From the IMG/VR virus record IMGVR_UViG_3300024518_006512, positions 1-24,171 of that record: a DNA stretch of 24,171 nucleotides, one strand, 5' to 3'. Positions 948 to 24,171 of the stretch are shown here, in pieces. A program made the translations under genes and the position numbers. Origin of the DNA: a virus. The notes under the pieces are model-generated. The model was given only the letters and a program-made list of their open reading frames with translations, made no database searches and was not told the origin of the DNA. Numbering within the stretch: position 1 is the stretch's first letter; each line of letters begins with the position of its first letter.

Positions 948-962
948 TAAGGAACAAAGTAA

Positions 963-1289: not shown

Positions 1290-1301
1290 GGGTAACAATC
1301 T

Positions 1302-4694: not shown

Positions 4695-4709
4695 GAGGAG
4701 AAATAGGAC

Positions 4710-5051: not shown

Positions 5052-5060
5052 GGATACCAA

Positions 5061-9103: not shown

Positions 9104-9110
9104 GGTAATA

Positions 9111-10292: not shown

Positions 10293-10293
10293 A

Positions 10294-11133
10294 GTGAATA
10301 TTATAGGATTGGGATCCGCAGGGTGCAAGGTGGCAGATGAACTCTCACAGCATCCTCAATATAAAATTTTTAAAATAGATGTCGGCATTTCTGGAGATGG
10401 ATGTTATAATATACCAAGCTTTGAGGCGCCCGAAGAATTTGAAGCATATAAATTTCCAAAGATGAAAACTTTTTTCAAGGGAATTGTTGGGGAGACTACA
10501 TTCGTTGTTGCCGGCGGTGGCAAAGCCTCTTGTGCTTCTTTAAAAATTCTTCAAAACATCAAACATTTGCCCATTTCTATCCTCTATATCAAGCCAGATT
10601 TAGAAATGCTAAATCAGACACAAAAAATGCAAGAAAGATTAGTTTTCGGCGTGCTTCAAGAGTATGCTCGCTCTGGTATTTTTGAGAAAATTTGCCTAGT
10701 TTCCAATACAGTGCTTGACTCGGTAGTGGGCGGCGCGCCAATTATCGGTTATTATGATAAGCTAAACGAAGCGCTTGTTTCCGTTTTCCATATGATAAAT
10801 GTATTTTATAATACAGATGCGGCCATTGGTAAAATTGAAAAACCAAAAGAAACCCACCGCATTGTCACGATCGGGCTTTTCGACGTGGAAAAAAATGAAG
10901 AAAAAATGTTTTTTTCCCTTGACAACTCTCGTGAAAAATGTTATATTTATAGTATAAGCGAGGAGAAGCTGAAAACAGATAAAGAATTATTTAGGAGATT
11001 GAAAAATCAAATAAAATTAAAATCAAAAGAAAATGTCAATATAACATATGCAGTATACTCGTCAGATTATGAACAAGATTTTGGATATATTATAGAAAGA
11101 ACACCACACATACAATTACAGGAAGTAGAGTGA
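10294..11133 (+). CDS. FtsZ/tubulin-like phage protein of unknown role
   Basis: This 279-aa protein starts with GTG at 10294, six bases after GGAGG. The N-terminus I-I-G-L-G-S-A-G-C-K-V-A-D-E-L looks like the first nucleotide-binding loop of the FtsZ/tubulin superfamily. Residues 70-83 (F-V-V-A-G-G-G-K-A-S-C-A-S-L) occupy the place of the Gly-rich GGGTGTG phosphate loop but are not canonical. A helical stretch near residues 154-173 (Y-Y-D-K-L-N-E-A-L-V) may correspond to the later core helices. The protein is shorter than FtsZ and appears to lack much of the C-terminal domain. From memory, related proteins of unknown function are conserved in T4-like cyanophages close to replication genes. 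Polymerisation or GTPase activity is not shown by the sequence. A promoter lies inside the gene. Confidence 0.6.
   Translation: MNIIGLGSAGCKVADELSQHPQYKIFKIDVGISGDGCYNIPSFEAPEEFEAYKFPKMKTFFKGIVGETTFVVAGGGKASCASLKILQNIKHLPISILYIKPDLEMLNQTQKMQERLVFGVLQEYARSGIFEKICLVSNTVLDSVVGGAPIIGYYDKLNEALVSVFHMINVFYNTDAAIGKIEKPKETHRIVTIGLFDVEKNEEKMFFSLDNSREKCYIYSISEEKLKTDKELFRRLKNQIKLKSKENVNITYAVYSSDYEQDFGYIIERTPHIQLQEVE
10919..10947 (+). promoter_or_regulatory. Internal sigma70-like promoter
   Basis: TTGACA (10919-10924), a 17-base spacer ending in ATGT, and TATATT (10942-10947) lie inside the tubulin-like gene. The box arrangement and the AAAAATGTTATATT run are nearly the same as in the promoter at 11396. 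It could give extra transcription of the 89-aa gene at 11130 and of the SSB gene. Its position inside a coding region lowers the confidence. Confidence 0.55.
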
Positions 11134-11399
11134 AAGCAAATTTAGGAATTTTTAAGAAGAAAGACGGGAGCCTGAGGACGATGAAATTCGTTGAGTTGGT
11201 AGACCTCCCAGAAGGATTTTTTATTTCCCAGACCAAGGGCACCAGCAAGAAAACAAATCTTACCGAAGGAAGCAACCTTGTTTGGGATTTGGATAAGCAA
11301 GGATTTCGTGTTTTTAACAAAAGCACGACTGTTGGAGAGATTGAGACTTTCAATATCGAGAGTCTTGAAAACTTTGAAAAATTTAAAAATAATGCTTGA
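11130..11399 (+). CDS. Conserved small phage protein, unknown function
   Basis: This 89-aa protein starts with GTG at 11130, overlapping the upstream TGA (GTGA), with GGAAG as a weak ribosome site. It reads as a small beta-rich domain: F-K-K-K-D-G-S-L-R-T-M-K-F-V at the start and L-V-W-D-L-D-K-Q-G-F-R-V-F-N near residues 69-82. I recall similar short proteins next to uvsX/SSB-region genes in T4-like aquatic phages, without a known function. It is coupled to the tubulin-like gene and followed by the SSB promoter, whose -35 box overlaps this gene's stop codon. Confidence 0.7.
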   Translation: MKANLGIFKKKDGSLRTMKFVELVDLPEGFFISQTKGTSKKTNLTEGSNLVWDLDKQGFRVFNKSTTVGEIETFNIESLENFEKFKNNA

Positions 11400-11424
11400 C
11401 AAGCATTCAAAAAAATGTTATATT
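11396..11424 (+). promoter_or_regulatory. Sigma70-like promoter of the SSB gene
   Basis: TTGACA (11396-11401), a 17-base spacer ending in ATGT, and TATATT (11419-11424) precede the SSB gene. A second, perfect TATAAT follows at 11426-11431 but is too far from the -35 box. The -35 box overlaps the TGA of the upstream gene. Transcription starting near 11431 would give a leader of about 70 bases that begins with a hairpin. Confidence 0.8.
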
Positions 11425-11433
11425 ATATAATAG

Positions 11434-11457
11434 AAAGACGAGAGATTTGTCGTCTTT
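11434..11457 (+). promoter_or_regulatory. Leader hairpin of the SSB mRNA
   Basis: A perfect 8-bp stem (AAAGACGA at 11434-11441 with TCGTCTTT at 11450-11457) and an 8-base loop lie at the predicted 5' end of the SSB transcript, 46 bases before its start codon. Five loop bases (11443-11447) could pair with 11475-11479 to give a short pseudoknot. It may stabilise the mRNA or serve autoregulation, as the T4 gene 32 leader pseudoknot does; that role is inferred. No T run follows, so it is not a terminator. Confidence 0.5.
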
Positions 11458-11503
11458 ACTTTAGCCAATGGCACAATTTCAATAATAAAAGGAGAAAATT
11501 AAC

Positions 11504-12277
11504 ATGGCATTAGATATCGCAAAAATTCGAGCACGGCTCGATAGCGTAAAAAGCAACGGAAAAGCTGGGGGGTCGTTTTGGCGCCCCAAGGATGGTACTC
11601 AAACAATTCGTATTGTACCAACGGAAGATGGCGACCCCTTCAAGGATTATTGGTTTCATTATAACTTGGGCCCAGATCAGAGAGGCGGCTTGCTTTGTCC
11701 AAACAAAAATCACGGAGAGGATTGTCCAATCTGTAATTTTAAGGACCAACTCTGGAAAGAATTTAACAGCAATCAGGATCCTGATACGATGAAGCTCGCA
11801 AAAGACTTGAGCCCTCGTCAACGCTTCTTTTCACCAGTTATGGTCCGCAGTGAGGAATCAGAAGGAATCCGTATCTGGGGCTATGGGAAAGAGGCATATA
11901 CCTCACTCCTTAATTTGGTTTTGAACCCCGAGTATGGAGATATTACAGATATCGATGACGGAACCGATCTGACTCTCACTTATGGTAAGCCACCCGGCGC
12001 CCAGTTTCCAAAGACTACTTTGACGCCCCGCCGACGCACATCGCCACTTTGTGACGAGGCCGTAGGGGGAGAAGAGGAATGTTCTCGTCTGATGGACAAC
12101 ATCCCAAATATTGATAGCCTTTTCCCCAAAAAGACACAGGAAGAAGTCCAAGCCGCTTTGGACGGATTTATTCAGTCTTTATCTGGATCAGAGGATACTA
12201 TTGATCAGGCAGACGTTTCAGTGCCGTCTACTACATCTGATGTGGTGGCTGCATTTAATGAGTTGACAGGAAACTAA
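11504..12277 (+). CDS. gp32-like single-stranded DNA-binding protein
   Basis: This 257-aa protein starts with ATG at 11504 after AAGGAGA. It follows the layout of T4 gp32: a basic N-terminal segment (residues 1-20), an OB-fold core beginning F-W-R-P-K-D-G-T-Q-T-I-R-I-V-P, a zinc-ribbon-like cluster Cys65, His70, Cys74, Cys77 in the loop where gp32 binds zinc, and an acidic Ser/Asp/Glu-rich tail of about 40 residues that would recruit partner proteins. gp32 has 301 residues, so this is a shorter member. It would coat ssDNA at the fork and load the recombinase encoded at 13061. It has its own promoter and leader hairpin and is followed by a terminator, consistent with strong, separate expression. 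Confidence 0.9.
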   Translation: MALDIAKIRARLDSVKSNGKAGGSFWRPKDGTQTIRIVPTEDGDPFKDYWFHYNLGPDQRGGLLCPNKNHGEDCPICNFKDQLWKEFNSNQDPDTMKLAKDLSPRQRFFSPVMVRSEESEGIRIWGYGKEAYTSLLNLVLNPEYGDITDIDDGTDLTLTYGKPPGAQFPKTTLTPRRRTSPLCDEAVGGEEECSRLMDNIPNIDSLFPKKTQEEVQAALDGFIQSLSGSEDTIDQADVSVPSTTSDVVAAFNELTGN

Positions 12278-12286
12278 CACCCCCCA

Positions 12287-12332
12287 CCGCAGGGAGGCAC
12301 GGGTTTATAGGTGCCTCACTTTATTTTTTTTA
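12287..12332 (+). terminator. Terminator with repeated GAGGCAC hairpin, copy 1
   Basis: GAGGCAC (12294-12300) pairs perfectly with GTGCCTC (12311-12317) across a 10-base loop and is followed by ACTTTA and a run of eight T. It closes the SSB transcription unit. Seventeen bases ahead of and into the hairpin (12287-12303) are identical to 12826-12842 after the next gene, so this is a repeated element. Confidence 0.85.
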
Positions 12333-12344
12333 AAAGGAAAAACC

Positions 12345-12812
12345 ATGACTACAGCTACAACTGGCGATAATGTTTCTGTTCATTATCGCGGCACATTAAC
12401 AGATGGTACCGAATTCGATAACTCGTATTCTCGCGGTACCCCGATTGAATTTGAAATTGGAAGTGGCCAAATGATTTCTGGCTTCTCCGACGCTATCGTA
12501 GGGATGGCAGTGGGAGATAAAAAGACAATTAGCCTCACTTCTTCCGAGGCATATGGGGAGGTTAATCCAGAGGCATCAACCTCAATCCCGCGCACATCGT
12601 TTCCAGCGGAAGTGGAGTTGACAGAGGGCATGCCAGTGCCGCTGGCCACTTCTGACGGGAGGCACTTGCTCGGAAGAGTGAGTGAAGTTGATACCGAAAC
12701 GGTGACCGTAGATTTAAATCATCCACTGGCGGGAAAAGCTCTGCAGTTCGAAGTTGAATTGATGGGTGTGGGCACTACAACAACCACGCCAGAAGAAGAC
12801 ACCACCACATAG
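12345..12812 (+). CDS. FKBP-type peptidyl-prolyl isomerase, SlyD-like
   Basis: This 155-aa protein starts with ATG at 12345 after AAAAGGA. It has the FKBP core with V-H-Y-R-G-T-L-T-D-G-T-E-F-D-N-S (residues 12-27, active-site Tyr14, Phe25 and Asp26), G-S-G-Q-M-I-S-G-F-S-D-A-I-V-G-M (39-54), and the SlyD-type return V-D-L-N-H-P-L-A-G-K-A-L-Q-F-E-V-E-L (122-139). Residues about 68-120 replace the flap, matching the chaperone insert of SlyD. No signal peptide and no His-rich metal-binding tail are present; the end is a Thr/Glu tail. It would speed proline isomerisation and help folding in the cytoplasm. The gene stands alone between two near-identical terminators and has no visible promoter, so it depends on read-through. 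It may have been picked up as a cassette. Confidence 0.93.
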   Translation: MTTATTGDNVSVHYRGTLTDGTEFDNSYSRGTPIEFEIGSGQMISGFSDAIVGMAVGDKKTISLTSSEAYGEVNPEASTSIPRTSFPAEVELTEGMPVPLATSDGRHLLGRVSEVDTETVTVDLNHPLAGKALQFEVELMGVGTTTTTPEEDTTT

Positions 12813-12825
12813 GATACCCCCCTGC

Positions 12826-12862
12826 CCGCAGGGAGGCACGGGGTACAGGTGCCTCACTTTTT
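12826..12862 (+). terminator. Terminator with repeated GAGGCAC hairpin, copy 2
   Basis: GAGGCAC (12833-12839) pairs with GTGCCTC (12849-12855) over a 9-base loop, followed by ACTTTTT. The sequences CCGCAGGGAGGCACGGG and AGGTGCCTCACTTT are shared with copy 1, so a near-identical hairpin lies on each side of the prolyl isomerase gene. The T run is shorter than in copy 1, so termination may be partial. Confidence 0.75.
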
Positions 12863-12876
12863 AATAAGGAAGTGTG

Positions 12877-13056
12877 ATGACAAAAGAATATCTACAGCGA
12901 CGCAGCGCACGACTTGCCCGAAAAAGTGCCAAGAGAAAACTAAAAGCGACGGCTAAGAGGATTGCAAAGCAACAGAAAAAGCATGAAGAAAACGTTCGTC
13001 GCCGCAAGGAACAGGCCGAGCGCCGCAAGCTCCTCGAAAATGGGATGCGGGGGTAA
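12877..13056 (+). CDS. Very basic 59-aa protein, unknown
   Basis: I chose ATG at 12877, six bases after AGGA, over the in-frame GTG one codon upstream. The 59 residues hold a large excess of Lys and Arg with regular heptad-like spacing (R-R-S-A-R-L-A-R-K-S, then K-A-T-A-K-R-I-A-K-Q-Q-K-K) and no Cys, so a single long basic helix is likely. I do not recognise a family. The gene lies between the second terminator and the recombinase gene and ends 4 bases before the latter, so the two are probably co-translated. A nucleic acid-binding role is suggested only by charge. Confidence 0.65.
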   Translation: MTKEYLQRRSARLARKSAKRKLKATAKRIAKQQKKHEENVRRRKEQAERRKLLENGMRG

Positions 13057-13060
13057 ATAA

Positions 13061-14167
13061 ATGGCAAGAAAAACAAAATCATCGGGTAAACTTACGATGC
13101 AAGAAATGAGAAAACTTGTCAACAAAAAGGCCGGTATGAATGTCGCCTTCGACCTCAAGGAAGAAAATCCAACTGAGGTGAAGGAATGGATTCCCACCGG
13201 CTCTCGTTGGCTTGATTCAATTATCTGTCGAGGAAAATATGCAGGAATTCCCGTAAGTAAAGTTGTCGAAATTGCGGGCCTTGAGGCCACAGGAAAGTCC
13301 TATATGGCTGCACAAATTGCAGCAAATGCTCAAAAGAAGGGCATTGAGGTAGTTTATTTTGATTCGGAGTCTGCAATCGACCCATCCTTTTTGGCAAATG
13401 CCGGCTGTGATTTAGATAGGCTTCTATATATCCAGGCCACTTCTGTTGAGTTTGTTTTGGAAACCATCGAAGAGCTTTTGGACTCCGGCAATAAAATGCT
13501 GTTTATCTGGGATTCGTTAGCGCTGACTCCCTGCGAGAGTGAGGTGCAGGGAAGCTTTGACCCAATGTCCCAAATGGCCATGAAGGCTCGAATTTTAGCA
13601 CGAGCAATGTCAAAATTAACAATTCAGATTGCAAATGCGGATGCGACCCTGTTGGTCCTAAATCAGTTGAAGACAAATATTACGAGAATTGCTTCTGAGG
13701 CGATGACTACCCCATATGTGACTCCGGGAGGAAAAGCTATGAGTTACGCCTACTCTCTTCGAATCTGGCTCACAGGCCGCAAAGCGAAGAAGAGTTTCGT
13801 ACTTGACGATAATGGATTCCGAATTGGATCCGAGGTCAAAGTAAAATTAGAGAAGTCTCGCTTCGGAACCTCCGGGCGACAATGTAATTTCCGCATCCTT
13901 TGGGGCGGGAATGATGTCGCCATCCAAGACGACGAGTCACTCTTCGATGCTGTGAGTGGATCCGATAATATTATCCAGTCAGGAGCCTGGTATACTATGG
14001 TTTTTGAGGATGGCTCAACAGAGAAATTCCAGTCAGCGAAGTGGGTTGAGAAAATGCAAGATGATAAATTCCGCCAACGTGTTTATCAGATTATAGATGA
14101 GGAAATTATTTATAAATTCGAGAGACGCGAGGGAAAAGCAGAAGATTTTTATGAATCCGAAGAGTAG
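13061..14167 (+). CDS. uvsX: UvsX/RecA-type recombinase
   Basis: This 368-aa protein contains the RecA core: Walker A G-L-E-A-T-G-K-S (residues 73-80), the catalytic Glu region V-Y-F-D-S-E-S-A-I-D (Glu103), Walker B L-F-I-W-D-S-L (Asp151), and N-Q-L-K-T-N (201-206) at the start of DNA-binding loop L2, followed by T-P-G-G-K-A. Length and the start of the L2 region are closer to T4 UvsX than to bacterial RecA. It would form a filament on ssDNA and drive strand exchange for repair and recombination-dependent replication with the SSB protein at 11504. The ATG at 13061 follows the previous stop by 4 bases. The symbol uvsX reflects family resemblance. Confidence 0.92.
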   Translation: MARKTKSSGKLTMQEMRKLVNKKAGMNVAFDLKEENPTEVKEWIPTGSRWLDSIICRGKYAGIPVSKVVEIAGLEATGKSYMAAQIAANAQKKGIEVVYFDSESAIDPSFLANAGCDLDRLLYIQATSVEFVLETIEELLDSGNKMLFIWDSLALTPCESEVQGSFDPMSQMAMKARILARAMSKLTIQIANADATLLVLNQLKTNITRIASEAMTTPYVTPGGKAMSYAYSLRIWLTGRKAKKSFVLDDNGFRIGSEVKVKLEKSRFGTSGRQCNFRILWGGNDVAIQDDESLFDAVSGSDNIIQSGAWYTMVFEDGSTEKFQSAKWVEKMQDDKFRQRVYQIIDEEIIYKFERREGKAEDFYESEE

Positions 14168-14187
14168 ATTCATAACTATATTATATT

Positions 14188-14823
14188 ATGTCTGATGATA
14201 TTTTAAAAATGAAGCATCACAAGCTCCTTTTCGAGCTTAAATTTTTGTATGCCGATTTGGAATACCACCAAACCATGCAAAATCACGCAACACAAAAATT
14301 CCAAGAAGAGTTTTTGAAATATTCAGAAGAGAATAAGACTCTTAAGATTATGTTTCCTGACGCCGAGGTGCCTCCCCCCACGAAAGGGGAGGCACCTCAA
14401 GTAGACAACGAGAAAATTTTCAAAATAGATAAAAAGAAAATAAGCAAGGAGGTGGCTGAATTATATAAAAAGGTGGTTTCAGTAACTCATCCAGATAAGT
14501 CAATTAATCTATCTAAACAGGAAAAGAGGCATAGGAAATCGGTCTTTTTAAAAGCGTCGGAGGCAGCACAGGAAGACAATTTATTTGCACTGCAACAGAT
14601 TGCGTTGGATTTAGGTTTTGAATTAAGTTCTCCGACAGAAAATCAAATTCAAATATTTGAAAAAGAAGCTGAAAAAATAAAACATAGAATAAAAGATATC
14701 ACAAAAACATATGCTTGGAGTTGGCACATGACAGCAGAAAATGAGAGAAAAGGGCAGATAATGGAAGAATATAATAATTTAATGGTGTTCAGGGCAGCTG
14801 AAAAAAGCACAGACGATGACTAA
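14188..14823 (+). CDS. J-domain-like (DnaJ-type) protein
   Basis: This 211-aa protein has an N-terminal coiled coil (about residues 1-55), a Pro-rich linker (58-72) encoded by a palindrome, and a J-like domain at about residues 85-145: helix E-L-Y-K-K-V-V-S-V-T, then the His-Pro-Asp motif at 101-103, a basic stretch K-R-H-R-K-S, and helix F-L-K-A-S-E-A-A. The HPD motif is the essential DnaK-stimulating element of J-domain proteins. A charged helical C-terminus follows. There is no Gly/Phe region, zinc domain or peptide-binding domain, so it is not a full DnaJ. It probably directs host DnaK to phage replication complexes. The following gene overlaps it by 8 bases. Confidence 0.8.
   Translation: MSDDILKMKHHKLLFELKFLYADLEYHQTMQNHATQKFQEEFLKYSEENKTLKIMFPDAEVPPPTKGEAPQVDNEKIFKIDKKKISKEVAELYKKVVSVTHPDKSINLSKQEKRHRKSVFLKASEAAQEDNLFALQQIALDLGFELSSPTENQIQIFEKEAEKIKHRIKDITKTYAWSWHMTAENERKGQIMEEYNNLMVFRAAEKSTDDD
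14365..14398 (+). repeat. In-frame palindromic repeat inside the J-domain gene
   Basis: A perfect 13-bp inverted repeat (GAGGTGCCTCCCC at 14365-14377 and GGGGAGGCACCTC at 14386-14398) surrounds an 8-base loop. Its arms contain AGGTGCCTC and GGGAGGCAC, the same nine-base words that form the arms of the terminators at 12294 and 12833, but in the opposite order. It is read in frame as the Pro-rich linker V-P-P-P-T-K-G-E-A-P. No T run follows it. It looks like a palindromic element inserted into a protein-tolerant site. Confidence 0.8.
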
Positions 14824-15781
14824 ATCAAAGAGGTTATTGATAGTTGATGCTCTAAACGCATATTTCCGAGCATATATTGTTAATCCGAGTCTATCAAAGA
14901 ACGGCCAACCAATCGGGGGTTATAAAGGATTTCTTGGAATCCTGCAAAAGCTTTGTCGAGAAATGAAGCCGGCTGAGATTATCATCGCTTGGGACGGCGC
15001 CGGCGGATCCTTACGCAGAAAAGAGGTCAACTCCAACTATAAGGAGGGTCGAAAGCCTATTCGCCTCAACCGCGATGTCCGAGTGTTGACAAAAGATGAG
15101 GAGATGCAGAATAAGGTTTGGCAACAATATCGCTTAATGGAGATGCTTAACTTCATGCCCGTCATCCAATTGATGGCTGATCGGGTCGAGGCTGATGACA
15201 TCATCTCATATGTTGCTCAATCCCCGCAGTATTCAGGCTGGGAAAAGATTATCGTGTCGAGCGACAAGGACTTCTTTCAACTTTGCGATGATGAAACAGT
15301 ACTTTATCGCCCCATACAAAAGAAGTTTATCAACAAGCCGAGGATCCTGGAGGAGTTTAAAATTCACCCAACGAATTTTGCTTTAGCTCGTGCTATGGCG
15401 GGAGATAAGTCCGACAACCTCCCAGGGGTCAGGGGTGTTGGCCTGGGTACCATTTCAAAAAGATTACCATTCTTTGCCGGTGAAGAGTCAGTAACAATTC
15501 CGGAACTTATTGAGTTTTGTGAAAATGATAATACGGGTCTAAAGGCCTTCTCTTCGATATGCGAAGCAGAAGATATTATTAAGGAAAATTATAAAATTAT
15601 GCAGCTTTACTCGCCGACAATGTCAATCGATGATAAAAGCAGGATAAAATACATTCTTGATAATTTTGAGCCACAGTTTAACAAGACGGAAGTAATTAAG
15701 CGCATGGCGGAAGACGGTTTCGGAAATTGGGATACGTCAGACTTGTTTACTACATTCAAAAGAATTTCAAATAAGTCTTGA
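14816..15781 (+). CDS. 5'-3' exonuclease / flap endonuclease (RNase H-like)
   Basis: This 321-aa protein belongs to the 5' nuclease family of Pol I N-terminal domains, T5 D15 and T4 RNase H. Metal-binding acidic residues are in place: Asp11 (L-L-I-V-D-A-L-N), Asp60 (I-I-A-W-D-G), Glu125-Asp127-Asp128 (V-E-A-D-D-I), Asp150 and Asp152 (V-S-S-D-K-D-F), and Asp197 and Asp200 (G-D-K-S-D-N), followed by a helix-hairpin-helix-like G-V-R-G-V-G. It would remove RNA primers and flaps. With the polymerase at 9111 it provides the two activities that bacterial Pol I holds in one chain. The gene overlaps the J-domain gene by 8 bases, and its stop codon overlaps the -35 box of the helicase promoter. Confidence 0.93.
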   Translation: MTKSKRLLIVDALNAYFRAYIVNPSLSKNGQPIGGYKGFLGILQKLCREMKPAEIIIAWDGAGGSLRRKEVNSNYKEGRKPIRLNRDVRVLTKDEEMQNKVWQQYRLMEMLNFMPVIQLMADRVEADDIISYVAQSPQYSGWEKIIVSSDKDFFQLCDDETVLYRPIQKKFINKPRILEEFKIHPTNFALARAMAGDKSDNLPGVRGVGLGTISKRLPFFAGEESVTIPELIEFCENDNTGLKAFSSICEAEDIIKENYKIMQLYSPTMSIDDKSRIKYILDNFEPQFNKTEVIKRMAEDGFGNWDTSDLFTTFKRISNKS

Positions 15782-15806
15782 CATCGCGGGCATCGTATGT
15801 TATATT
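15778..15806 (+). promoter_or_regulatory. Sigma70-like promoter of the helicase gene
   Basis: TTGACA (15778-15783), a 17-base spacer ending in ATGT, and TATATT (15801-15806) precede the helicase gene. The -35 box overlaps the stop codon of the exonuclease gene, the same arrangement as at 11396. The leader would be about 14 bases and includes the GGGGG ribosome site. Confidence 0.8.
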
Positions 15807-15826
15807 AAGAATAGATAGGGGGAAAA

Positions 15827-17188
15827 ATGTCTAAGGAAGACTTTAGCCAATATGGCAAAGACTTTCAGGAAACCTTGTGTCATCTGATCTTGGTCAATAG
15901 GCCCTTTGCAGATCAGATGTTTGAGGTTTTGAATATTAATTTTCTGGAGCTTAAATATCTTCAAGTTTTTGTCCAGCTAGTTAAGGAATATAGAGAAAAA
16001 TATTCTGTCCATCCGACAGAAAAAATTATGACTTCTATATTGAGAACGGAATTGACCAACGAAAATGAGTCTGTCCAACAACAAATTAGGCATTTTTTTG
16101 CTAGAATATCTAAAACTACAATAGAAGATTCTGAATATATTATAGAAACATCTTTAGACTTTTGTAGGAAACAAAAGCTAAAAGAGGCAATGCTTAAATC
16201 TGTAAAACTATTAAAGAACTCGTCTTTTGACGAGATTTCTCAGGTTATAAACGAGGCGCTCAAGCTTGGTTCCGATTCAAATTTCGGACACGATTATGTA
16301 AAAGATTTTGAACAGAGATTTATTTTTAAAGCTAGAAATCCAATCGCCACTGGCTGGGCGGAAATAGATGCGATAACTCATCAGGGCTTGGGACAGGGAG
16401 AACTTGGGGTGGTCATTGCCCCAACGGGCGCGGGTAAAAGTATGGCCCTCGTTCACATGGGCGCCCAAGCTATGAAGGCAGGAAAAAATGTTGTATATTA
16501 TACGCTAGAATTATCTGAAACGGTAGTTGGGTCACGCTTTGACAGTTGTATAACAAATGTCCCGCTCAATGATTTATCTGCATTTAAAGAAGAAATATAT
16601 GAAAAAGTTCAAATGATAGAGGGCAATTTGATAGTGAAAGAATATCCCACCAAGTCTGCTAGCTGCCAAACCCTAAAGAATCATCTAGAAAAGTTGGTGA
16701 ACCGAGGATTCAAGCCCGATATGGTTCTGGTGGATTACGGAGATTTATTGCGGCCAATTTCAACATTAAGGGAGAAAAGACACGAGCTGGAGACTATTTA
16801 TGAACAGCTTCGAGCAATTGCTCAGACACATGGTTGTTGTGTCTGGACAGCATCTCAAACGAACCGTTCTGGATTAAATGCCGAAGTTATTACAATGGAA
16901 TCAATATCGGAGGCTTTTAATAAATGTTTTGTTGCAGATTTTATTTTTTCAATATCCAGAACGGCGGAAGATAAATTGGCAAACACGGGACGTATTTTTG
17001 TTGCTAAGAATAGGAATGGTGTTGATGGTATAATTTATCCAATTTATATGGATACCAGAAATGTAACAATTAATGTTCAAACATCTACCGGCGAGACCAT
17101 CGGCGATGTAAAAAAAGAAGCCAAGAAGAGACAAGAGAAAAAATTAGTAACGTTATATAAGAAAGTAAAGGATGGGGGGAGAAAATAA
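15827..17188 (+). CDS. DnaB-type replicative helicase (gp41-like)
   Basis: This 453-aa protein has a helical N-terminal domain (about residues 1-145) that would bind a primase, then a RecA-like motor: Walker A A-P-T-G-A-G-K-S (198-205), motif H1a Y-T-L-E-L-S-E (Glu228), Walker B M-V-L-V-D-Y-G-D (Asp303), and motif H3 T-A-S-Q-T-N-R (Gln344). The order and sequences match DnaB/gp41 hexameric helicases that move 5'-3' on the lagging strand. The C-terminus is basic and Lys-rich. No primase gene was recognised in the window. The reductase gene that follows overlaps by one base (TAATG), so the two are coupled and share the promoter at 15778. Confidence 0.93.
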   Translation: MSKEDFSQYGKDFQETLCHLILVNRPFADQMFEVLNINFLELKYLQVFVQLVKEYREKYSVHPTEKIMTSILRTELTNENESVQQQIRHFFARISKTTIEDSEYIIETSLDFCRKQKLKEAMLKSVKLLKNSSFDEISQVINEALKLGSDSNFGHDYVKDFEQRFIFKARNPIATGWAEIDAITHQGLGQGELGVVIAPTGAGKSMALVHMGAQAMKAGKNVVYYTLELSETVVGSRFDSCITNVPLNDLSAFKEEIYEKVQMIEGNLIVKEYPTKSASCQTLKNHLEKLVNRGFKPDMVLVDYGDLLRPISTLREKRHELETIYEQLRAIAQTHGCCVWTASQTNRSGLNAEVITMESISEAFNKCFVADFIFSISRTAEDKLANTGRIFVAKNRNGVDGIIYPIYMDTRNVTINVQTSTGETIGDVKKEAKKRQEKKLVTLYKKVKDGGRK

Positions 17189-19437
17189 TGTCGTTAAGTG
17201 CACTTCAAGATTATACTAGGATAGCAAAATATGCTAAATATTTGCCAGAGAACAAGAGGCGCGAAACCTGGAAAGAACAGGTTACTCGTGTATTCAACAT
17301 GCATAGGGAAAAATTTAAGGATAATGAGGAAATTTTATCTTTTATTGAAGAGGCAGAATTAGCGGTACAAAAGAAAGAGGTTCTTGGATCGCAAAGAATT
17401 TTGCAGTTTGGCGGCCGCCCAATTTTTAAGCATAACGCACGCGTTTATAATTGTGCCTTTGGCCATATCAATCGAACGAGATCATTTCAAGAGCTTATGT
17501 ATCTTCTTCTGTGCGGCTGTGGAGTGGGCTTTTCAGTTCAGAAACATCATGTGGCATCCATTCCTCTTGCTGCACGCCCAGAAGAGGAAATCAGTAAGAT
17601 TTTTGTGGTTCCCGACACGATTGAGGGGTGGGCTGATGCAATTGGTGTGCTAGTTACGAGTTATCTTGGAGGCAATGCCGATTTTGATGATTATATCGGC
17701 TTTAGGGTGGTTTTTGATTATTCAAAAATTCGACCTGCGGGATCCCCCCTCAGTTCCGGGTCAAAAGCTCCAGGCCCTGCGGGCCTAGAGAGGTCAATTG
17801 AAAAAATTAGAGAAGTTTTTGAAAAGAGGCTCGGAGTCTCAAGCCGCACACGCCTTGAGCCTGTTGATGTTTATGATATTATTATGCACGCTGCCGATGC
17901 AGTAATCTCCGGCGGAGTCCGCCGCTCCGCAACAATAGCCCTCTTTTCTCCGGACGATAAAGCAATGGCTACCGCCAAGACTGGCAATTGGTTCGTGGAG
18001 AACCCCCAGCGCGGCCGCTCAAACAATAGTGCTCTCCTCATTCGCGACAAAACCTCGAAAGAGACATTCAACCGACTAATGGGCTGGGTGCGCGAGTTCG
18101 GAGAGCCAGGATTTGTATGGGCCGACAGTACAGAAATGGGCTTTAATCCTTGTGTTGAGATTGGTCTATATCCCGTAGATATTGAGACTAACAAGCCCGG
18201 TTGGCAATTTTGCAATTTGACAGAAATCAATGGCAAGAAAGCAAAAACTCCAGAAAGTTTCCACAGCGCTTGCCGCGCTGCGGCAATTATTGGCACGCTT
18301 CAATCAGCATATACGGATTTCCCCTATTTGGGGGAAACAACCGAAAAGATTACAAGACGGGAATCACTCCTTGGGGTTTCAATCACTGGTATGATGGATA
18401 ACCCAGAAGTCTTGTTTAATCCGCAAGTTCAAAGAGCTGGCGCAAAGATTGTCAAGGATATTAATAAAGAAATTGCTTCTATGATTGGAATTAATCAGGC
18501 AGCGCGAACGACGTGCGTAAAACCCGCCGGCTCAACTAGTTGTATTCTTGGCACCGCTTCGGGAATTCACCCGCACCACGCTAAGAGATACTTTCGCCGA
18601 GTGCAGGCAAACGTACAGGAAAACCCAGTTCAGCACTTTAAAAAATTTAATCCGCGCGCAGTTGAGAAGTCCGTCTGGGATCCGAATGGAGTAACAGAAG
18701 TTATTACTTTTCTCTGTGAAGTGCCAGTTGGCGCTAAGACCAAGAATCAAATTGATGCATCAAGATTGTTGGAAAGCGTGAAATTAACACAGCAGAATTG
18801 GGTTCGCTATGGAACAAACAAAGATTTGTGTGCTCAGCCGTGGTTAAGTCATAATGTTTCTAATACTATTCACGTCCGAGAAAATGAGTGGGCTGAGATA
18901 GCCGATTACATTTATAAGAATAGGAAATACTTTGCAGGAATTTCTTTAATTCCAAATTCTGGAGATAAAGACTATCCCCAAGCTCCGTTTTGTGCCGTTC
19001 CATATCCTGCGGACATCTTGAGGGAGTATGGCGCCGGCTCCTTTTTCGCTTCTGGAATAATAGAGTCCGCGCTTTTTGCATTTTCTGGTGATTTGTGGGC
19101 GGCCAGCGATTGCTTGCTTGGAATAGGAGAACCACTTGATAAAGTTACTCCAATCAAGCGCAGTTGGGCAACTTCTGCCATCAAATTCGCCGATAGCCAT
19201 TTTAACGGAAATGTCAGGATAATGACATATTGTCTAAAGGACATATATAATTTAAAACTTTGGGAAAAACTTTCTCAGGAATATAAAGATATTGATTGGA
19301 CATCAATGTGTGAAGAAGAAGATAATATTGACTTTGCACAAGATTCTGCATGTGCTGGTGGTACATGTGAAATCCCCATTGAATATTTAAATGCCCTAAG
19401 GGAAAATAAAGAACAACAAATCGACATAAAGGAATAA
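17188..19437 (+). CDS. nrdJ: Adenosylcobalamin-dependent (class II) ribonucleoside-triphosphate reductase
   Basis: This 749-aa enzyme makes deoxyribonucleotides using a B12-generated thiyl radical. It resembles the monomeric Lactobacillus leichmannii type (739 aa). Key residues are all visible: Cys89 in Y-N-C-A-F (like Cys119), Asn320, Cys322 and Glu324 in N-P-C-V-E (like Asn406, Cys408, Glu410), Cys342 in F-C-N-L-T-E-I (like Cys419), and the C-terminal redox pair Cys722 and Cys727 in C-A-G-G-T-C (like Cys731/Cys736). The run R-P-A-G-S-P-L-S-S-G-S-K-A-P-G-P and the C-V-K-P-A-G-S-T-S segment are also typical. It needs host cobalamin or a salvage supply, works with oxygen, and needs no small subunit, so no nrdB or nrdD is expected. 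It is coupled to the helicase gene. Confidence 0.95.
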   Translation: MSLSALQDYTRIAKYAKYLPENKRRETWKEQVTRVFNMHREKFKDNEEILSFIEEAELAVQKKEVLGSQRILQFGGRPIFKHNARVYNCAFGHINRTRSFQELMYLLLCGCGVGFSVQKHHVASIPLAARPEEEISKIFVVPDTIEGWADAIGVLVTSYLGGNADFDDYIGFRVVFDYSKIRPAGSPLSSGSKAPGPAGLERSIEKIREVFEKRLGVSSRTRLEPVDVYDIIMHAADAVISGGVRRSATIALFSPDDKAMATAKTGNWFVENPQRGRSNNSALLIRDKTSKETFNRLMGWVREFGEPGFVWADSTEMGFNPCVEIGLYPVDIETNKPGWQFCNLTEINGKKAKTPESFHSACRAAAIIGTLQSAYTDFPYLGETTEKITRRESLLGVSITGMMDNPEVLFNPQVQRAGAKIVKDINKEIASMIGINQAARTTCVKPAGSTSCILGTASGIHPHHAKRYFRRVQANVQENPVQHFKKFNPRAVEKSVWDPNGVTEVITFLCEVPVGAKTKNQIDASRLLESVKLTQQNWVRYGTNKDLCAQPWLSHNVSNTIHVRENEWAEIADYIYKNRKYFAGISLIPNSGDKDYPQAPFCAVPYPADILREYGAGSFFASGIIESALFAFSGDLWAASDCLLGIGEPLDKVTPIKRSWATSAIKFADSHFNGNVRIMTYCLKDIYNLKLWEKLSQEYKDIDWTSMCEEEDNIDFAQDSACAGGTCEIPIEYLNALRENKEQQIDIKE

Positions 19438-19441
19438 TAAT

Positions 19442-19708
19442 ATGATGAGACCATGTAACAGGTATGTTTTAATTTCACAGCCGAAAGCGGAAAAAGGCGA
19501 AAGTTTAATCGCGTTGCCAGAGGGATCCTTCAGGCCCGAAAGTAAATATTCAAAAGTAGAAATTTTTGCTGCGGCACCAGACGTCCGCCCCCCCATTTCG
19601 GTTGGGAATCAGGCAATCGTTTTAACACATATGATCGAAGAAGTGGAATTTGACAATGAAGTAGTCTATTTAGTATTGGAAAATCATATTCTTGCGATTT
19701 TAGATTAG
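19442..19708 (+). CDS. GroES-like co-chaperonin
   Basis: This 88-aa protein follows the GroES/gp31 pattern: R-P-C-N-R-Y-V-L-I near the start (like the first strand of GroES), a mobile-loop equivalent with hydrophobic L-I-A-L at 22-25, a middle V-G-N-Q-A-I-V-L-T, and an ending N-E-V-V-Y-L-V-L-E-N-H-I-L-A-I-L, which lines up well with the closing strands of bacterial GroES. It would cap the host GroEL ring, probably to fold phage proteins, as gp31 does for the T4 capsid protein. I chose ATG 19442, eight bases after AAAGGA; a second ATG follows directly. It sits just after the reductase gene. Confidence 0.8.
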   Translation: MMRPCNRYVLISQPKAEKGESLIALPEGSFRPESKYSKVEIFAAAPDVRPPISVGNQAIVLTHMIEEVEFDNEVVYLVLENHILAILD

Positions 19709-19720
19709 GGGAACTTTGAT

Positions 19721-19876
19721 ATGAATAGAAACTTTTTAAATTTAATTAAGGAATTGGTCAGTGAAGAGCTTTTCAAGAGGGAAGCACTTCTGGAGTCGCC
19801 GGTTAATAAAAGCAGACAAATTATTTTGGAAAGAAAACTCAATAAGATGTTGGGAAAAAAGATAGATGAGCGATGA
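19721..19876 (+). CDS. 51-aa small protein, unknown
   Basis: A short gene starts with ATG at 19721, 10 bases after GGGGA, and ends at TGA 19874-19876. The product is an amphipathic helix with alternating hydrophobic and charged residues (F-L-N-L-I-K-E-L-V-S-E-E-L at positions 5-17), then a Lys/Arg-rich end. Its stop region overlaps the next start codon by 11 bases, so it fits the tight packing of neighbouring genes. The N-terminal run, hydrophobic helix then E-E, weakly recalls the leader seen in the genes from 21130 on. No family recognised. Confidence 0.6.
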   Translation: MNRNFLNLIKELVSEELFKREALLESPVNKSRQIILERKLNKMLGKKIDER

Positions 19877-20057
19877 TGCTTATGAAGTTAATAAAATAAT
19901 AAAATCTTGGGATCTTGGATATAATTTGGGCCACGCTTTGAAATATATTGTGAAATATAAGGAAGGTAGTGAAAAGCCAATTGATGATTTGAGAAAGGCA
20001 AGATTTTTTATTGATCGCCACATCCGACTCTTGAATCAGGAAGATGAAGCTCAATAA
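19866..20057 (+). CDS. DUF3310-like small protein
   Basis: This 63-aa protein matches the core of the DUF3310 family, common in tailed phages: Y-E-V-N-K-I-I-K-S-W-D-L-G-Y-N-L-G-H-A-L-K-Y-I (residues 6-28) and I-D-D-L-R-K-A-R-F-F-I-D-R-H-I (39-53). The usual His-Tyr motif near the N-terminus is absent, so this is a short version. DUF3310 proteins are sometimes annotated as nucleotide kinases, but their function is not settled. It overlaps the preceding and the following gene, so all three are likely translated together. Confidence 0.75.
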   Translation: MSDDAYEVNKIIKSWDLGYNLGHALKYIVKYKEGSEKPIDDLRKARFFIDRHIRLLNQEDEAQ

Positions 20058-20925
20058 GCATATTTATAAAAAGGAAACTATTGTTATCGGCGGAGGACTG
20101 AGTGCTCTTTTATATTCTTATTATAACAATTTGCCTTGTATTTTTTCTAAGTCCAGCGTTCCCTTTGAGTTTGATGTGTTTGATGGGGGGTACGACTTCT
20201 CGTTCCTCGGAGTTGAGGAGCCGAATAGACTAGTCATCTGGCAAAGGCTTATAACCTCCCTCTCTCTGGGTGGTCAGTTGCCGATGTCGGATAAGACAGA
20301 GTCTATTAGTATACAAGACAACAATCTTAAGGCAGTTACCGGCAATTCTAGGCTGGGTCGGTTTGAATTTGACAAGTTGGTTGTTTTCGACGACAGGGAC
20401 ATTCGAGGCTTGCCACCCACAAGGGGCCAGGAAGTTGGAAAATGCAGAGTTATTGATTGGTTTCATGTTCGATCCGGGATGGAGCATAATCATAATTCGC
20501 TGGAGACTGAAGACAACTTCATTCAGAAAGTTATTTTCTACCCGTCAGATAGATTTGGAAATCAAACGTCAGAAAGGGTTAGAAAGGATCTTGTGGCGAT
20601 ATCACATTTGGACGAGGATCAATTAGATGATTTTGATTATTCGGATACGATGGCAAAGTTCAAAATCACACAGATGATGAAAGACGCTGGAATAAAGGGC
20701 GCGCGCAACGGCAGAGATACTTATAATCCCAATATTTACAGATATTATTCTCCCAAGATAGAGGCAGCAGAAAGACAAGTAATTTCAAATGTTAAAAACT
20801 TTTATAAAAAAGATAAAAGATTTGAATTTAGGCACGAAACACCAGAAGAAATTATTAAATTATTTTCGTGTGATCCTCAATCTTATTGTTCAAAAATTAC
20901 GGAGTTATTGTATAAAAATAACTAA
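20044..20925 (+). CDS. Putative FAD/NAD-binding protein of unknown role
   Basis: This 293-aa protein starts with ATG at 20044 (AGG three bases before, overlapping the previous gene by 14 bases). Residues 13-22 read I-V-I-G-G-G-L-S-A-L, the start of a dinucleotide-binding Rossmann fold as in flavoprotein oxidoreductases. The rest contains L-V-I-W-Q-R-L-I-T-S-L-S-L-G-G-Q (63-78), F-D-K-L-V-V-F-D-D (109-117), and a basic C-terminal half. I recall similar proteins conserved in T4-like cyanophages near replication and nucleotide genes, with no known function. The second Gly-rich and Asp motifs of classical FAD enzymes are not evident, so cofactor binding is an inference. Confidence 0.55.
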   Translation: MKLNKHIYKKETIVIGGGLSALLYSYYNNLPCIFSKSSVPFEFDVFDGGYDFSFLGVEEPNRLVIWQRLITSLSLGGQLPMSDKTESISIQDNNLKAVTGNSRLGRFEFDKLVVFDDRDIRGLPPTRGQEVGKCRVIDWFHVRSGMEHNHNSLETEDNFIQKVIFYPSDRFGNQTSERVRKDLVAISHLDEDQLDDFDYSDTMAKFKITQMMKDAGIKGARNGRDTYNPNIYRYYSPKIEAAERQVISNVKNFYKKDKRFEFRHETPEEIIKLFSCDPQSYCSKITELLYKNN

Positions 20926-20935
20926 TTATATAACG

Positions 20936-21133
20936 ATGGGTCACCTAAGAGACATTAACGAGGGATATTTTGAGCATTTCCGCCATGCCTTTGAGATGGG
21001 GTCTGTCTTATTCTTGGCTTCCTTCGGTCAGTTCTTGCACTCTGTGTTCCCGGCCATACGGCCGCCTCTCGGATCCGATGTGAGGTCCCTGATTAAATTT
21101 TTAGAAACAAAGCTGCCGGAGAATAGAAAATGA
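20936..21133 (+). CDS. Small membrane protein, DUF6356-like
   Basis: I place the start at ATG 20936, ten bases after the upstream stop, giving 65 residues. An in-frame open stretch reaches back to 20789 but lies inside the previous gene. The product has F-E-H-F-R-H-A-F-E-M-G-S-V-L-F-L-A-S-F-G-Q-F near residues 12-33 and H-S-V-F-P-A, and so looks like the small proteins annotated as DUF6356, which carry one membrane-spanning helix. The role is unknown. It overlaps the next gene by four bases (ATGA), suggesting coupling. Confidence 0.6.
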   Translation: MGHLRDINEGYFEHFRHAFEMGSVLFLASFGQFLHSVFPAIRPPLGSDVRSLIKFLETKLPENRK

Positions 21134-23298
21134 AGCAATTTTTTGAAGGCTTGCGCCGCTGGGGAACCCTTACTGAGGAACAGCTTCTTGTCGAGAGCAT
21201 CCTTAAAGACGCGAAGAAAAAATATCCGAATGTTGACCCCAATTGGGTTGACAGGCTAAGTGAAAGAGACCCGTCTGGGAAAAATAAATATTTGATGTGG
21301 GCAACAAAGCAGTTCGCGAAGATGACAGAACCATATCGCGAGAAAGCCCAAGCCCAAAGCGATGCCCGTGGTGGGCACCTACATCCCGACGACGAAGTCG
21401 TCGTCGCCCAAGCGTCATACGAGGCATACAGGGCCATAGCCGATGCTGTAGGGAAATTCCATGCAAATTCTCAAAGATTGAAGAGTAAAGATATCAACGC
21501 CTACAAAACCGCCGATGATATTACGGCGGCGATTAGGGATCTTGGGATGAGCGATAGGCAAAAAAGACAAAAAAGGAGAGAGCGCGCCCAGGAGGGATCA
21601 ACGAAAATAGGAGAGGATGATAATTTTTTGGTGATGAGGCCCCTGACGCCGGCGGCGTCCTGTTACTATGGCCAGGGGACTGGAACACCCAAATATGGTC
21701 CGTGGTGCATTGCAAAAACAAAGGGGCAGAATTATTTTCAATCATACACCGATGACGGGAAAGCTTTTTATATAGTCAACATGAAAAATCTTGATGAAGA
21801 TACTGATGGCAAAAAGATTGCTCTGGTATATGAAAGGGACTGGGATTATGATGCTCCGGAGGAGATTTGGAATAGGCCAAATGATAGTGTCGAAGAAGAT
21901 TCATTTCTCAGGTACGTTACAAAAAATATTATCGCCGCATGGTTTTCTGATTATGAGAAGGTTTATATGGAGTGGGAAACATTCCACTCCGACCCGGAAA
22001 AAGAAAATTTAACAGATAATCTCAAAAAGCTCGCATCCAACTTGGGCCTCGACATCGAGCCCCCCGACGACGTCGACCTGGAACTCACTGAAATATTTCA
22101 GGAGGAGGTCTTCGACATTTTTAAATTATCAGCTGAACACAACAGGGAAAATCCAGCCGGCCCAGACCCGCAGGCCTATGAGGATCTACTGAACGCGCAG
22201 GACTTTTCAAATGTTCATGTAACTCTTGAGGATTACGGAGAGGGTATGTGGTGGGATGGCGGAGTATATTGGAAACTCCCAGAATTAGAATACGCCGTGG
22301 ACGAGCTGGGCGACGAACAGGGTTTCGGCCATTGGAAGGATGACATCCTAGAAATTTTCATATCAGTTGCTGACAATAATTATATATATCCAGATGAGTC
22401 CGAAGCCATTTCGAGTGAGGAGGCTATTCGATTTGTATTTCATCCGGACCATGGCCAAAGCACCTCCCTAGAGGGGTTTGAATCCTTCTTGGAAAGCATG
22501 CAGACGGTTGAAGATGCATATGATACTATTTTGAAAGAGGCCCTGCAAGTTATGGTCGAGGCAGGTATAACGACGTCTGAAGAGTATGATAAGAGGGCGG
22601 AACAAATCAGAAAGAAGTATCTCAACAAGTTTGAGAATTTTGGCGCGATATTCGAGAAAGGAAAAATAAAGTTTTACCAGAAAGAGGAGTATGTGGTGCA
22701 AATGCCACTCTTCAGAACCCTCGGTGGCCCAGAACTCAGGCGAGTTGAACCCAGGTCCGCCGCCCAATGGCTCGCCCCTTCTCCAGAGAGGGACCAATAT
22801 TTCAAAAACACCGTTGGATATCTCAACACGCTCAGCGTTAAGGACCGAGCACTCAAATATGCCTTTGATAAAACTTGGCCACTAGCTTACGACCGATCCA
22901 AGGAAATGCAAAAACAACTCTCATTGACGGAGATTCATTTATACGGTGATTATCCCAATCTACACCAGCTGGAATTCACAGAATATCTTGTTGACCTAGA
23001 GAATGGCGGAGAACTCGGCGCCGCAGTTATATTTTCTAGGGTACCCACGGACGATGAGCGGGGCTTGGCATATGCCGACTGGCTTGATGAAAATTTAGAC
23101 ACCTTCTACGACGCAGTTGCGGAGTTTATCTTAAAAACGGCCCACGAAACCCGCGTTCACCAAGGGCGCGCCAACCCCGGCAAATTTGAGGCAGGTCGAA
23201 AGTTGGGATTTGGAGCACAAGACTCAGAAGAGCAGGTTTCTGAAAATGCCTCTTATAGTAAACTTTGCGAAGGGTGGAAAAGGTGGGCAGGCAAGTGA
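21130..23298 (+). CDS. 722-aa protein with possible packaged-protein leader
   Basis: The product starts M-K-Q-F-F-E-G-L-R-R-W-G-T-L-T-E-E, a relative of the leaders of the next two genes. Residues 47-62 (D-P-S-G-K-N-K-Y-L-M-W-A-T-K-Q-F) and 110-125 (F-H-A-N-S-Q-R-L-K-S-K-D-I-N-A-Y) form a helical domain I have seen in uncharacterised phage proteins. A second unit at about 165-240 has A-S-C-Y-Y-G-Q-G-T, W-C-I-A, then Y-F-x2-Y and F-Y-I-V-N, an arrangement I recall from other phage proteins of unknown role. The rest is acidic, rich in Asp, Glu, Trp and Tyr. No signal peptide or known catalytic site was found. The first ATG overlaps the previous stop. Confidence 0.7.
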   Translation: MKQFFEGLRRWGTLTEEQLLVESILKDAKKKYPNVDPNWVDRLSERDPSGKNKYLMWATKQFAKMTEPYREKAQAQSDARGGHLHPDDEVVVAQASYEAYRAIADAVGKFHANSQRLKSKDINAYKTADDITAAIRDLGMSDRQKRQKRRERAQEGSTKIGEDDNFLVMRPLTPAASCYYGQGTGTPKYGPWCIAKTKGQNYFQSYTDDGKAFYIVNMKNLDEDTDGKKIALVYERDWDYDAPEEIWNRPNDSVEEDSFLRYVTKNIIAAWFSDYEKVYMEWETFHSDPEKENLTDNLKKLASNLGLDIEPPDDVDLELTEIFQEEVFDIFKLSAEHNRENPAGPDPQAYEDLLNAQDFSNVHVTLEDYGEGMWWDGGVYWKLPELEYAVDELGDEQGFGHWKDDILEIFISVADNNYIYPDESEAISSEEAIRFVFHPDHGQSTSLEGFESFLESMQTVEDAYDTILKEALQVMVEAGITTSEEYDKRAEQIRKKYLNKFENFGAIFEKGKIKFYQKEEYVVQMPLFRTLGGPELRRVEPRSAAQWLAPSPERDQYFKNTVGYLNTLSVKDRALKYAFDKTWPLAYDRSKEMQKQLSLTEIHLYGDYPNLHQLEFTEYLVDLENGGELGAAVIFSRVPTDDERGLAYADWLDENLDTFYDAVAEFILKTAHETRVHQGRANPGKFEAGRKLGFGAQDSEEQVSENASYSKLCEGWKRWAGK

Positions 23299-24068
23299 AA
23301 CTCCTACTTGAAAATTGGCGAAGGTATCTAAAAGAAGAAAAACAACTCGATCTTTTTAAGAGTGAGAATTTATATGATAATTATTATATAACGTATGACT
23401 TCGGAGGGCCCGAGAGTGTTGATTCTCGGTCAACCGATAAAATAGAGGTATCTGATTGTGGGGAGGGGATCATCGGAGGAGCTAACGAAGGTGTGGGCAC
23501 CGTTTATTTACATGACCGGTGGTCCGGTGAGAGTTTAATGAAATTTAGAATCCACAAATATAGGGGCTGGATAGGCGACTTGATGGCCGTTCGGGACTGT
23601 TCGGACTATGCCCGTGACAAGTGTGAGCATGATGACCGCGACTATGAGAGTTGCCAACAAGAAGAGTGCGAGTACTGTTCTAGTGATCTTAAGGATACGG
23701 GAGTTATTACCGATGAGTTTTTGGACGAAGAGTTTTATAGCGGACACTGGAGTCTGGATGACATCGCCCGGGAAAGATTAAAACAAGGCGGACATCAGCG
23801 CAAGTTTGCTAAACTCGGGATAGCCCTTAGAGAATCTGCTTTAGCACTCCTTCAAGGGATATATGGCGCTAAGTATTATGTGTTTGCTGACGCCACTCAT
23901 CAAGGGGGGTCCAATGAGGCAGCCCAAAAAGTTGTAAAGATTTTGGTTAAAAGGGGCGCCCTTGGTCGGGAAGACGGCTTGGTGCCGAGCTTTGTTGATG
24001 AAGATAAGATTAATCAATATTTGATTTTTCCAATTTTAAATCCAAAAAACAAATTTAAAATAAAATGA
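23295..24068 (+). CDS. 257-aa Cys-rich protein with possible packaged-protein leader
   Basis: I chose GTG at 23295, which overlaps the upstream TGA (GTGA) and starts a leader V-K-L-L-L-E-N-W-R-R-Y-L-K-E-E nearly identical to that of the next gene. An in-frame upstream start at 23265 would add ten residues that have no counterpart there. The middle (residues about 101-131) has six Cys in C-S-D-Y-A-R-D-K-C, S-C-Q-Q-E-E-C-E-Y-C, a possible metal site. The C-terminal third (A-L-R-E-S-A-L-A-L-L, then A-D-A-T-H-Q-G-G-S-N-E-A-A-Q-K-V) faintly recalls an acetyltransferase, which I do not claim. The role is unknown. Confidence 0.7.
   Translation: MKLLLENWRRYLKEEKQLDLFKSENLYDNYYITYDFGGPESVDSRSTDKIEVSDCGEGIIGGANEGVGTVYLHDRWSGESLMKFRIHKYRGWIGDLMAVRDCSDYARDKCEHDDRDYESCQQEECEYCSSDLKDTGVITDEFLDEEFYSGHWSLDDIARERLKQGGHQRKFAKLGIALRESALALLQGIYGAKYYVFADATHQGGSNEAAQKVVKILVKRGALGREDGLVPSFVDEDKINQYLIFPILNPKNKFKIK
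23296..23325 (+). repeat. Direct repeat at gene start, copy 1
   Basis: The 30 bases from 23296 are identical to 24066-24095. They include the stop codon of the upstream gene (TGA) and the first ten codons of the gene at 23295. The sequences diverge immediately after. The identity is at the nucleotide level, including third positions, so it reflects recent duplication, recombination or strong sequence constraint. Confidence 0.95.
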
Positions 24069-24171
24069 AACTCCTACTTGAAAATTGGCGAAGGTTCTTG
24101 AATGAAGGTGATCTTGAGGCCGCCCTTGATTATCTAGAGGATGCCTTTGGAAATAAGCATGCATCGGGAAG
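24065..24171 (+). CDS. Third leader-bearing gene, 3'-truncated
   Basis: ATG at 24065 overlaps the previous stop (ATGA) and the window ends after 35 codons. The visible product begins M-K-L-L-L-E-N-W-R-R-F-L-N-E-G and continues into an acidic helix (D-L-E-A-A-L-D-Y-L-E-D-A). Thirty bases starting inside its first codon are identical to the start of the preceding gene. The leader contains L-N-E-G, a match to the cleavage pattern L-x-E followed by a small residue used by T4-type prohead proteases. The rest of the protein cannot be seen. Confidence 0.75.
   Translation, partial: MKLLLENWRRFLNEGDLEAALDYLEDAFGNKHASG
24066..24095 (+). repeat. Direct repeat at gene start, copy 2
   Basis: Second copy of the 30-base repeat at 23296, again spanning the overlapping stop codon of the upstream gene and the first ten codons of the next gene. 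The spacing between copies is 770 bases, the length of the intervening gene. Confidence 0.95.

Follow-up and report, generated by a model that had tools for sequence, protein, structure and literature searches.

A shared N-terminal leader resembling the T4 capsid-targeting signal on unrelated proteins of uncultured, mostly marine T4-like phages

Why should neighbouring phage genes that encode unrelated proteins begin in the same way? This question is raised by three consecutive genes, starting at 21130, 23295 and 24065, at the end of the IMG/VR virus record IMGVR_UViG_3300024518_006512 (positions 1 to 24,171). The whole stretch of DNA analyzed, here called the window, is a fragment of 24,171 nucleotides (nt), and its own head genes lie beyond it. 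The common start (leader A) is very probably a T4-type capsid-targeting propeptide carried by an expanded, swappable set of head-packaged proteins.

All three genes are located on the + strand, and each junction (21130/23295 and 23295/24065) is a 4-nt stop/start overlap. The first gene (21130..23298, ATG start) encodes a protein of 722 amino acids (aa) that starts with MKQFFEGLRRWGTLTEEQ. The second (23295..24068) encodes a 257-aa Cys-rich protein starting with (M)KLLLENWRRYLKEEK, and its GTG start overlaps the preceding stop. The third (24065..24171, ATG start, protein start MKLLLENWRRFLNEG) ends at the window edge. The original prediction described their common start as K-x-[LF]-[LF]-E-x-x-R-R-[WYF] plus L-x-E, and this was seen in all three proteins. 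The leaders of the second and third genes, (M)KLLLENWRRYLKE (23295..23336, +) and MKLLLENWRRFLNE (24065..24106, +), are canonical, each with a predicted cut after E14. They share 30 identical nt, read directly as a direct repeat at 23296..23325 and 24066..24095 (+). With a degenerate pattern allowing three mismatches, these two were the only canonical leader sites in the window, where 0.03 were expected. Relatives of the 257-aa protein were sought and none was found. The leader of the first gene (MKQFFEGLRRWGTLTE, 21130..21177, +, predicted cut after E16) is divergent. In relatives of the 722-aa protein the leader is canonical (MKLLFENWRQYLNE; MKLLFENWRQYLNEEQLLIEGRIEDVKKRYP in L382; also L385), and they share EEQLLxE and the body with it, the same EEQLLxEGRxED start standing right behind their leader. 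Therefore, judged by these alignments, the divergent leader is counted as a member of the same type.

The consensus of leader A is MKLL[LF]ENWR[KREQ][YF][LI]xE (14 residues), and the phages bearing it are uncultured, mostly marine and T4-like. Viral contigs were scanned with a degenerate DNA pattern over residues 1-9, and the resulting counts, being among the matches listed, are lower bounds. Leader A opened at least 262 open reading frames (ORFs) of at least 40 aa, belonging to at least 104 body families mutually unrelated by BLAST. Among the matches listed, the motif was N-terminal in 267 cases, C-terminal in nine and internal in four. Leader score distributions were bimodal, with high scores almost confined to start codons. 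The common start on unrelated bodies, first noticed in three genes, thus extends well beyond the window and is almost always N-terminal. Five near-complete genomes encoded 3 to 12 type A genes each, mostly in arrays. In these genomes the relaxed core [WYF]xx[FYWH][LIM]xE occurred at 38 N-termini, where about 2 would be expected judging by internal windows, and the same search applied to T4 recovered ipII and ipIII. A longer leader pattern gave no hits in 257 Gb of prokaryote genomes, and no match in cultured phages was obtained by megablast of the window end or tblastn of the leader. De novo comparison of N-termini showed no excess of shared starts over the control in Mel-JY01, RM378 and S-SSM7, and some excess, partly signal peptides, in immuto; the T4 protein set was too small for this method. 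The literature searched held no report of leader A, or of the second leader described below, in phages, and none pairing 'capsid targeting sequence' with metagenomics. Orphan leaders were also observed, in which 11 codons (MKLLLENWRG[LMI]) are followed by a stop immediately 5' of the next ATG (L041:3537, L109, L032, L034); they may be exchange scars or a coupling device.

The leader was compared with the signal of T4 internal protein III (IPIII), MKTYQEFIAE. According to PMC9026906, amber suppression assigned targeting mainly to residues 4 and 7 and processing to residues 8 and 10, and gp21 of T4 cuts after L/I-x-E. These four residues align, with unchanged spacing, with W8, Y/F11, L/I12 and E14 of the leader. 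By family, W/Y/F8 was present in 104/104, F/Y/W/H11 in 99/104, L/I/V/M12 in 97/104 and E14 in 88/104. E14 was also present in 131/160 of the pattern set, which is unbiased for this residue because residues 1-9 were fixed and 10-15 unselected. With V and M counted as L/I, [LIVM]xE occupied residues 12-14 in 87 of the 104 families; among the other 17, LxE was shifted by a few residues in 10 and absent near the leader in seven. For LxE the background was 0-1% when the position was fixed and 11-20% when any place within 12 residues was allowed. Gene 21130 has such a shifted site (W-G-T-L-T-E), and T4 IPI likewise has one (MKTFKEFTSTTTPVSTITE, from the T4 record). The proposed likeness to the T4 capsid-targeting signal and its L/I-x-E cut-site pattern appears to hold on this comparison, as the critical IPIII positions align and the site is kept even when shifted. 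In T4 itself, the 54-aa hypothetical protein gp61.1 (NC_000866 18966-19130; L538) starts with MKTFKEFIKEDM, which nearly matches the capsid-targeting sequence of this phage.

A second leader (type B), MK[IL]TKxxLKxIIKEE with the 14-residue tag MKITKxxLKxIIKE, was found in the same genomes by de novo N-terminus comparison and is non-homologous to leader A. It was detected on about 350 ORFs in about 280 body families (L130-L181 genomes, L245-L323). In eight body families the leader depends on the phage, some members starting with A and others with B. The bodies of L048 and L323 align from just past residue 14 (MKLLLENWRKYMKE followed by NIDLDIKVGD vs MKITKLQLRRIIAE followed by AIDLDIEKGD), and glutamate at residue 14 closes both leaders within [LIM]-x-E. 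This alignment, together with the shared end at E14, argues that A and B may be alternative removable tags.

The genomic context was in accordance with a head function. The window is colinear with the five near-complete leader-bearing genomes of 180-203 kb, with identities of 67-72% for the UvsX-like protein, 60-66% for the helicase and 42-50% for the DNA polymerase. All five encode a head module in T4 order (terminase, portal, S77 protease, scaffold and Gp23 capsid), so that a Gp23-type capsid gene and T4-like head gene order were present in 5/5. The gp21-type (S77) protease was encoded by 8/8 leader-bearing records of at least 150 kb, and by 1/4 random large records. The motif search at N-termini of related phages that the original prediction had proposed thus placed the leader on unrelated genes in genomes with this protease, rather than confining it to genomes that lack one. 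The N-terminal region of the capsid proteins ends in LL[RK]E/A and the proteases have an LLTE/D site near their start; these sites agree with cleavage after L/I-x-E, the precise positions being predictions. Leader A genes were located within 1.6 kb of the protease gene in G012, G023, G056, G020 and G025, and leader B genes occupied the slot directly after it in G015, G055, G049 and G048.

The 722-aa protein provides a link to virions. It has 46 relatives in viral contigs, and some relatives of its body, in other phages, have no leader. The family profile gave one match in the Pseudomonas phage PA5oct, EST35_0205 (E 1.4e-32), which is annotated as a structural protein with the note ESI-MS/MS (electrospray ionization tandem mass spectrometry); two further such proteins are encoded nearby. 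EST35_0205 starts with MKLFEVFTLYE, which has the T4-like F4-x-x-F7 followed by L-Y-E, and PA5oct encodes an S77 protease. This annotation is the sole experimental trace of the 722-aa body family in virions. Fold searches with the N-terminal domain of the 722-aa protein gave no match in PDB; the matches elsewhere were limited to the PA5oct structural protein, viral proteins without an assigned function and, weakly, PcfJ-like proteins. A search for an ADP-ribosyltransferase (ART) domain in the 722-aa protein gave no ART match. In the structure model the leader forms a helix (residues 2-31) with low confidence in the first 20 residues, which was not used as evidence. The protein also has a leader-like C-terminal tag, SYSKLCEGWKRWAGK (23251..23295, +), and its closest full-length relatives retain this leader-like end (kept in L371/L373, L374, L375 and L376; similar in L379). 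An unrelated 611-aa protein (L026, G006) also ends in a leader-like motif, NCLFENWRGFLKED.

The best surviving alternative is that the leader is a docking helix for another cell site (for example the membrane, a host protein or a replication complex) unrelated to the head. Amphipathic helices at an N-terminus serve generally for docking and several bodies are nucleotide- or RNA-metabolizing enzymes, but we consider this explanation very improbable. It does not account for the conserved LxE that is kept when shifted, the match to the critical T4 positions, the protease in 8/8 long records, the location of leader genes beside the protease, or the PA5oct virion protein.

The leader genes were accessory and never core in the five genomes. 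Among their 71 leader A and B genes, none was common to all five and 52 had no relative in the others, vs 340 of the 1090 total ORFs present in all five. Gene pairs with a shared upstream flank had unrelated bodies in 22/33 leader pairs and in 22/214 non-leader pairs. In L017, L030 and L084, identity was 93-100% through the leader and at background level beyond. At the window locus, the gene after the 722-aa gene varies among L373, L374, L375 and L376, while the leader start spanning the stop codon is constant. By these comparisons, unrelated cargo is swapped within one slot, and the break lies at the leader. Homogenisation of leaders within a genome was not supported (codon identity 0.78 within vs 0.75 between contigs; permutation 134/1000). 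Copies within one genome are no more alike than those between genomes; the pattern therefore speaks for phages exchanging with one another rather than for recent copying inside one genome.

The leader DNA itself is conserved. The codons Leu3 CTC, Leu4 CTA, Leu5 CTT and Arg9 CGA are far from body usage (chi-square p 1e-48 to 3e-19), and a 26-nt core is identical in five genes each of G012 and G015 and recurs in the window repeat. The first 30 nt might accordingly be conserved as DNA or RNA, as a translation element or recombination site, with the peptide incidental; the codon choice, the identical 26-nt leaders and the orphan leaders with their terminal stop would agree with this. We regard it as less probable still than a docking helix, since conservation begins only at the start codon (the 20 nt upstream show 32-34% identity), divergent leaders encode the same peptide pattern in other DNA, the non-homologous leader B substitutes on the same bodies, C-terminal copies exist and LxE is retained at shifted positions. 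That the genes are paralogues from one ancestor retaining only the N-terminus is scarcely credible: they are adjacent with a common start, but the 104 families are unrelated by BLAST, their folds range over exonuclease, protein kinase, SET, NUDIX and guanylate kinase, one body can bear different leaders, and the 722-aa body has leaderless relatives in other phages.

With the leader taken as a capsid-targeting propeptide, we infer the following steps for these phages, from entry into the core to the role of the cargo. The N-terminal segment MKLL[LF]ENWRK[YF][LI]xE would send new proteins into the prohead core, where a gp21-type prohead protease would cut past the glutamate of [LI]-x-E. The trimmed bodies would stay packed with the DNA inside the head until both enter the host. 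The bodies are accessory and replaceable, the leader DNA marks the point at which recombination swaps one cargo for another, and the cargo would probably serve early host takeover and counter-defence. We lean slightly towards a modular form of effector loading in a large, mostly marine group of T4-like phages, in which a given cargo can bear either tag A or tag B, the tag DNA is a homologous-recombination anchor for trading injected effectors, and hundreds of cargo families could be listed directly from sequence.

Domains that could be named among the cargo included protein kinase, SET, guanylate kinase, zeta-toxin-like kinase, NUDIX, CCA-adding enzyme, DEDD exonuclease, RNA-repair (SAK), acetyltransferase and DUF192; most bodies had no named domain. 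Among the T4 internal proteins, one is anti-restriction and another is required to infect one E. coli strain (PMC3012670, PMC9391042). A role of the cargo in counter-defence or host takeover is plausible because of this analogy with T4 IPI and IPIII. Matches to defence-related hidden Markov models among the cargo were single and weak and were not used. ADP-ribosyltransferase cargo (YHGT-type bodies at other loci) was considered and was unsupported by Pfam and PDB sequence searches, which gave one sub-threshold ART-PolyVal match (E 0.11).

Several points weigh against a capsid-targeting propeptide. The leader-bearing phages are uncultured and known here from sequence alone. LxE is missing around the leader in seven of the 104 families, and E14 in roughly one leader out of six. 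The guanylate kinase, NUDIX and CCA-adding enzyme cargo looks like ordinary phage metabolism with no obvious need for packaging. The codon-level conservation of the leader exceeds the needs of a pure protein tag. The protease test is weak alone: large records chosen mainly via leader B or the 722-aa body encoded the protease in 16/19, and the random comparison sample held only four large records. Given the 16/19 in records chosen otherwise, protease co-occurrence was rejected as a sole test.

Among known systems, T4 IPI, IPII and IPIII (MKTYQEFIAE) resemble this one in having a short N-terminal propeptide, constant in the leader and variable in the unrelated cargo (PMC9026906, PMC3012670). They also share the aromatic-x-x-aromatic-[LI]-x-E core with equal spacing, a gp21-type protease and a Gp23-type capsid. 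Leader A differs in being four residues longer with other letters. A single genome of the leader-bearing phages can contain as many as 12 type A genes, many of which encode enzyme domains; leader B, non-homologous and present in the same genomes, and the leader-like C-termini are further differences. T4 Alt is a packaged ADP-ribosyltransferase that gp21 trims at both ends (PMC9026906). The 722-aa protein, with a leader-like segment at each end, recalls this; unlike Alt it has no ADP-ribosyltransferase match, and its body is related to a virion protein of PA5oct and shows a weak fold similarity to phage proteins of the PcfJ-like kind. Leader A and both ends of the 722-aa protein are characterized here only as sequences. 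In phiKZ, 201phi2-1 and SPN3US, ejection proteins are comparable in that a gp21-related protease cuts many head proteins after glutamate; the phiKZ cut motif is S/A-x-E, and the available text of PMC9026906 reports no common leader of this kind for these phages. The original prediction stands, as the analogy with the T4 capsid-targeting sequence held in each test applied to it. The scale is new, and so are leader B, the C-terminal copies of the leader and the cargo exchange at the leader DNA.

Proteins injected with phage DNA are known for very few phages. A head-cargo tag makes them searchable, with at least 104 families for leader A and about 270 more suggested by leader B, the majority having no known function. 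Through the tag, the effectors that act in the first minutes of infection by marine phages become directly testable, and cargo exchange is visible at the tag itself in abundant uncultured phages.

Upstream of the three leader genes, the window encodes T4-like tail, baseplate and replication genes (279..20922, +), colinear with the leader-bearing 180-203 kb genomes. A small ORF starting with MGHLRDINEGYFEHFRHAF (20936-21133) overlaps the start of gene 21130 by 4 nt. A similar body carries a leader in L055 (DQNEGYFEHMFAA), and therefore a leaderless array member may precede gene 21130. The ribonucleotide-reductase-like gene at 17188-19437 showed 43-44% identity to its counterparts in G006 and G003 and 24-25% to those in G012 and G023, all in the same slot. 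Thus, two lineages of this gene seem to replace each other there.

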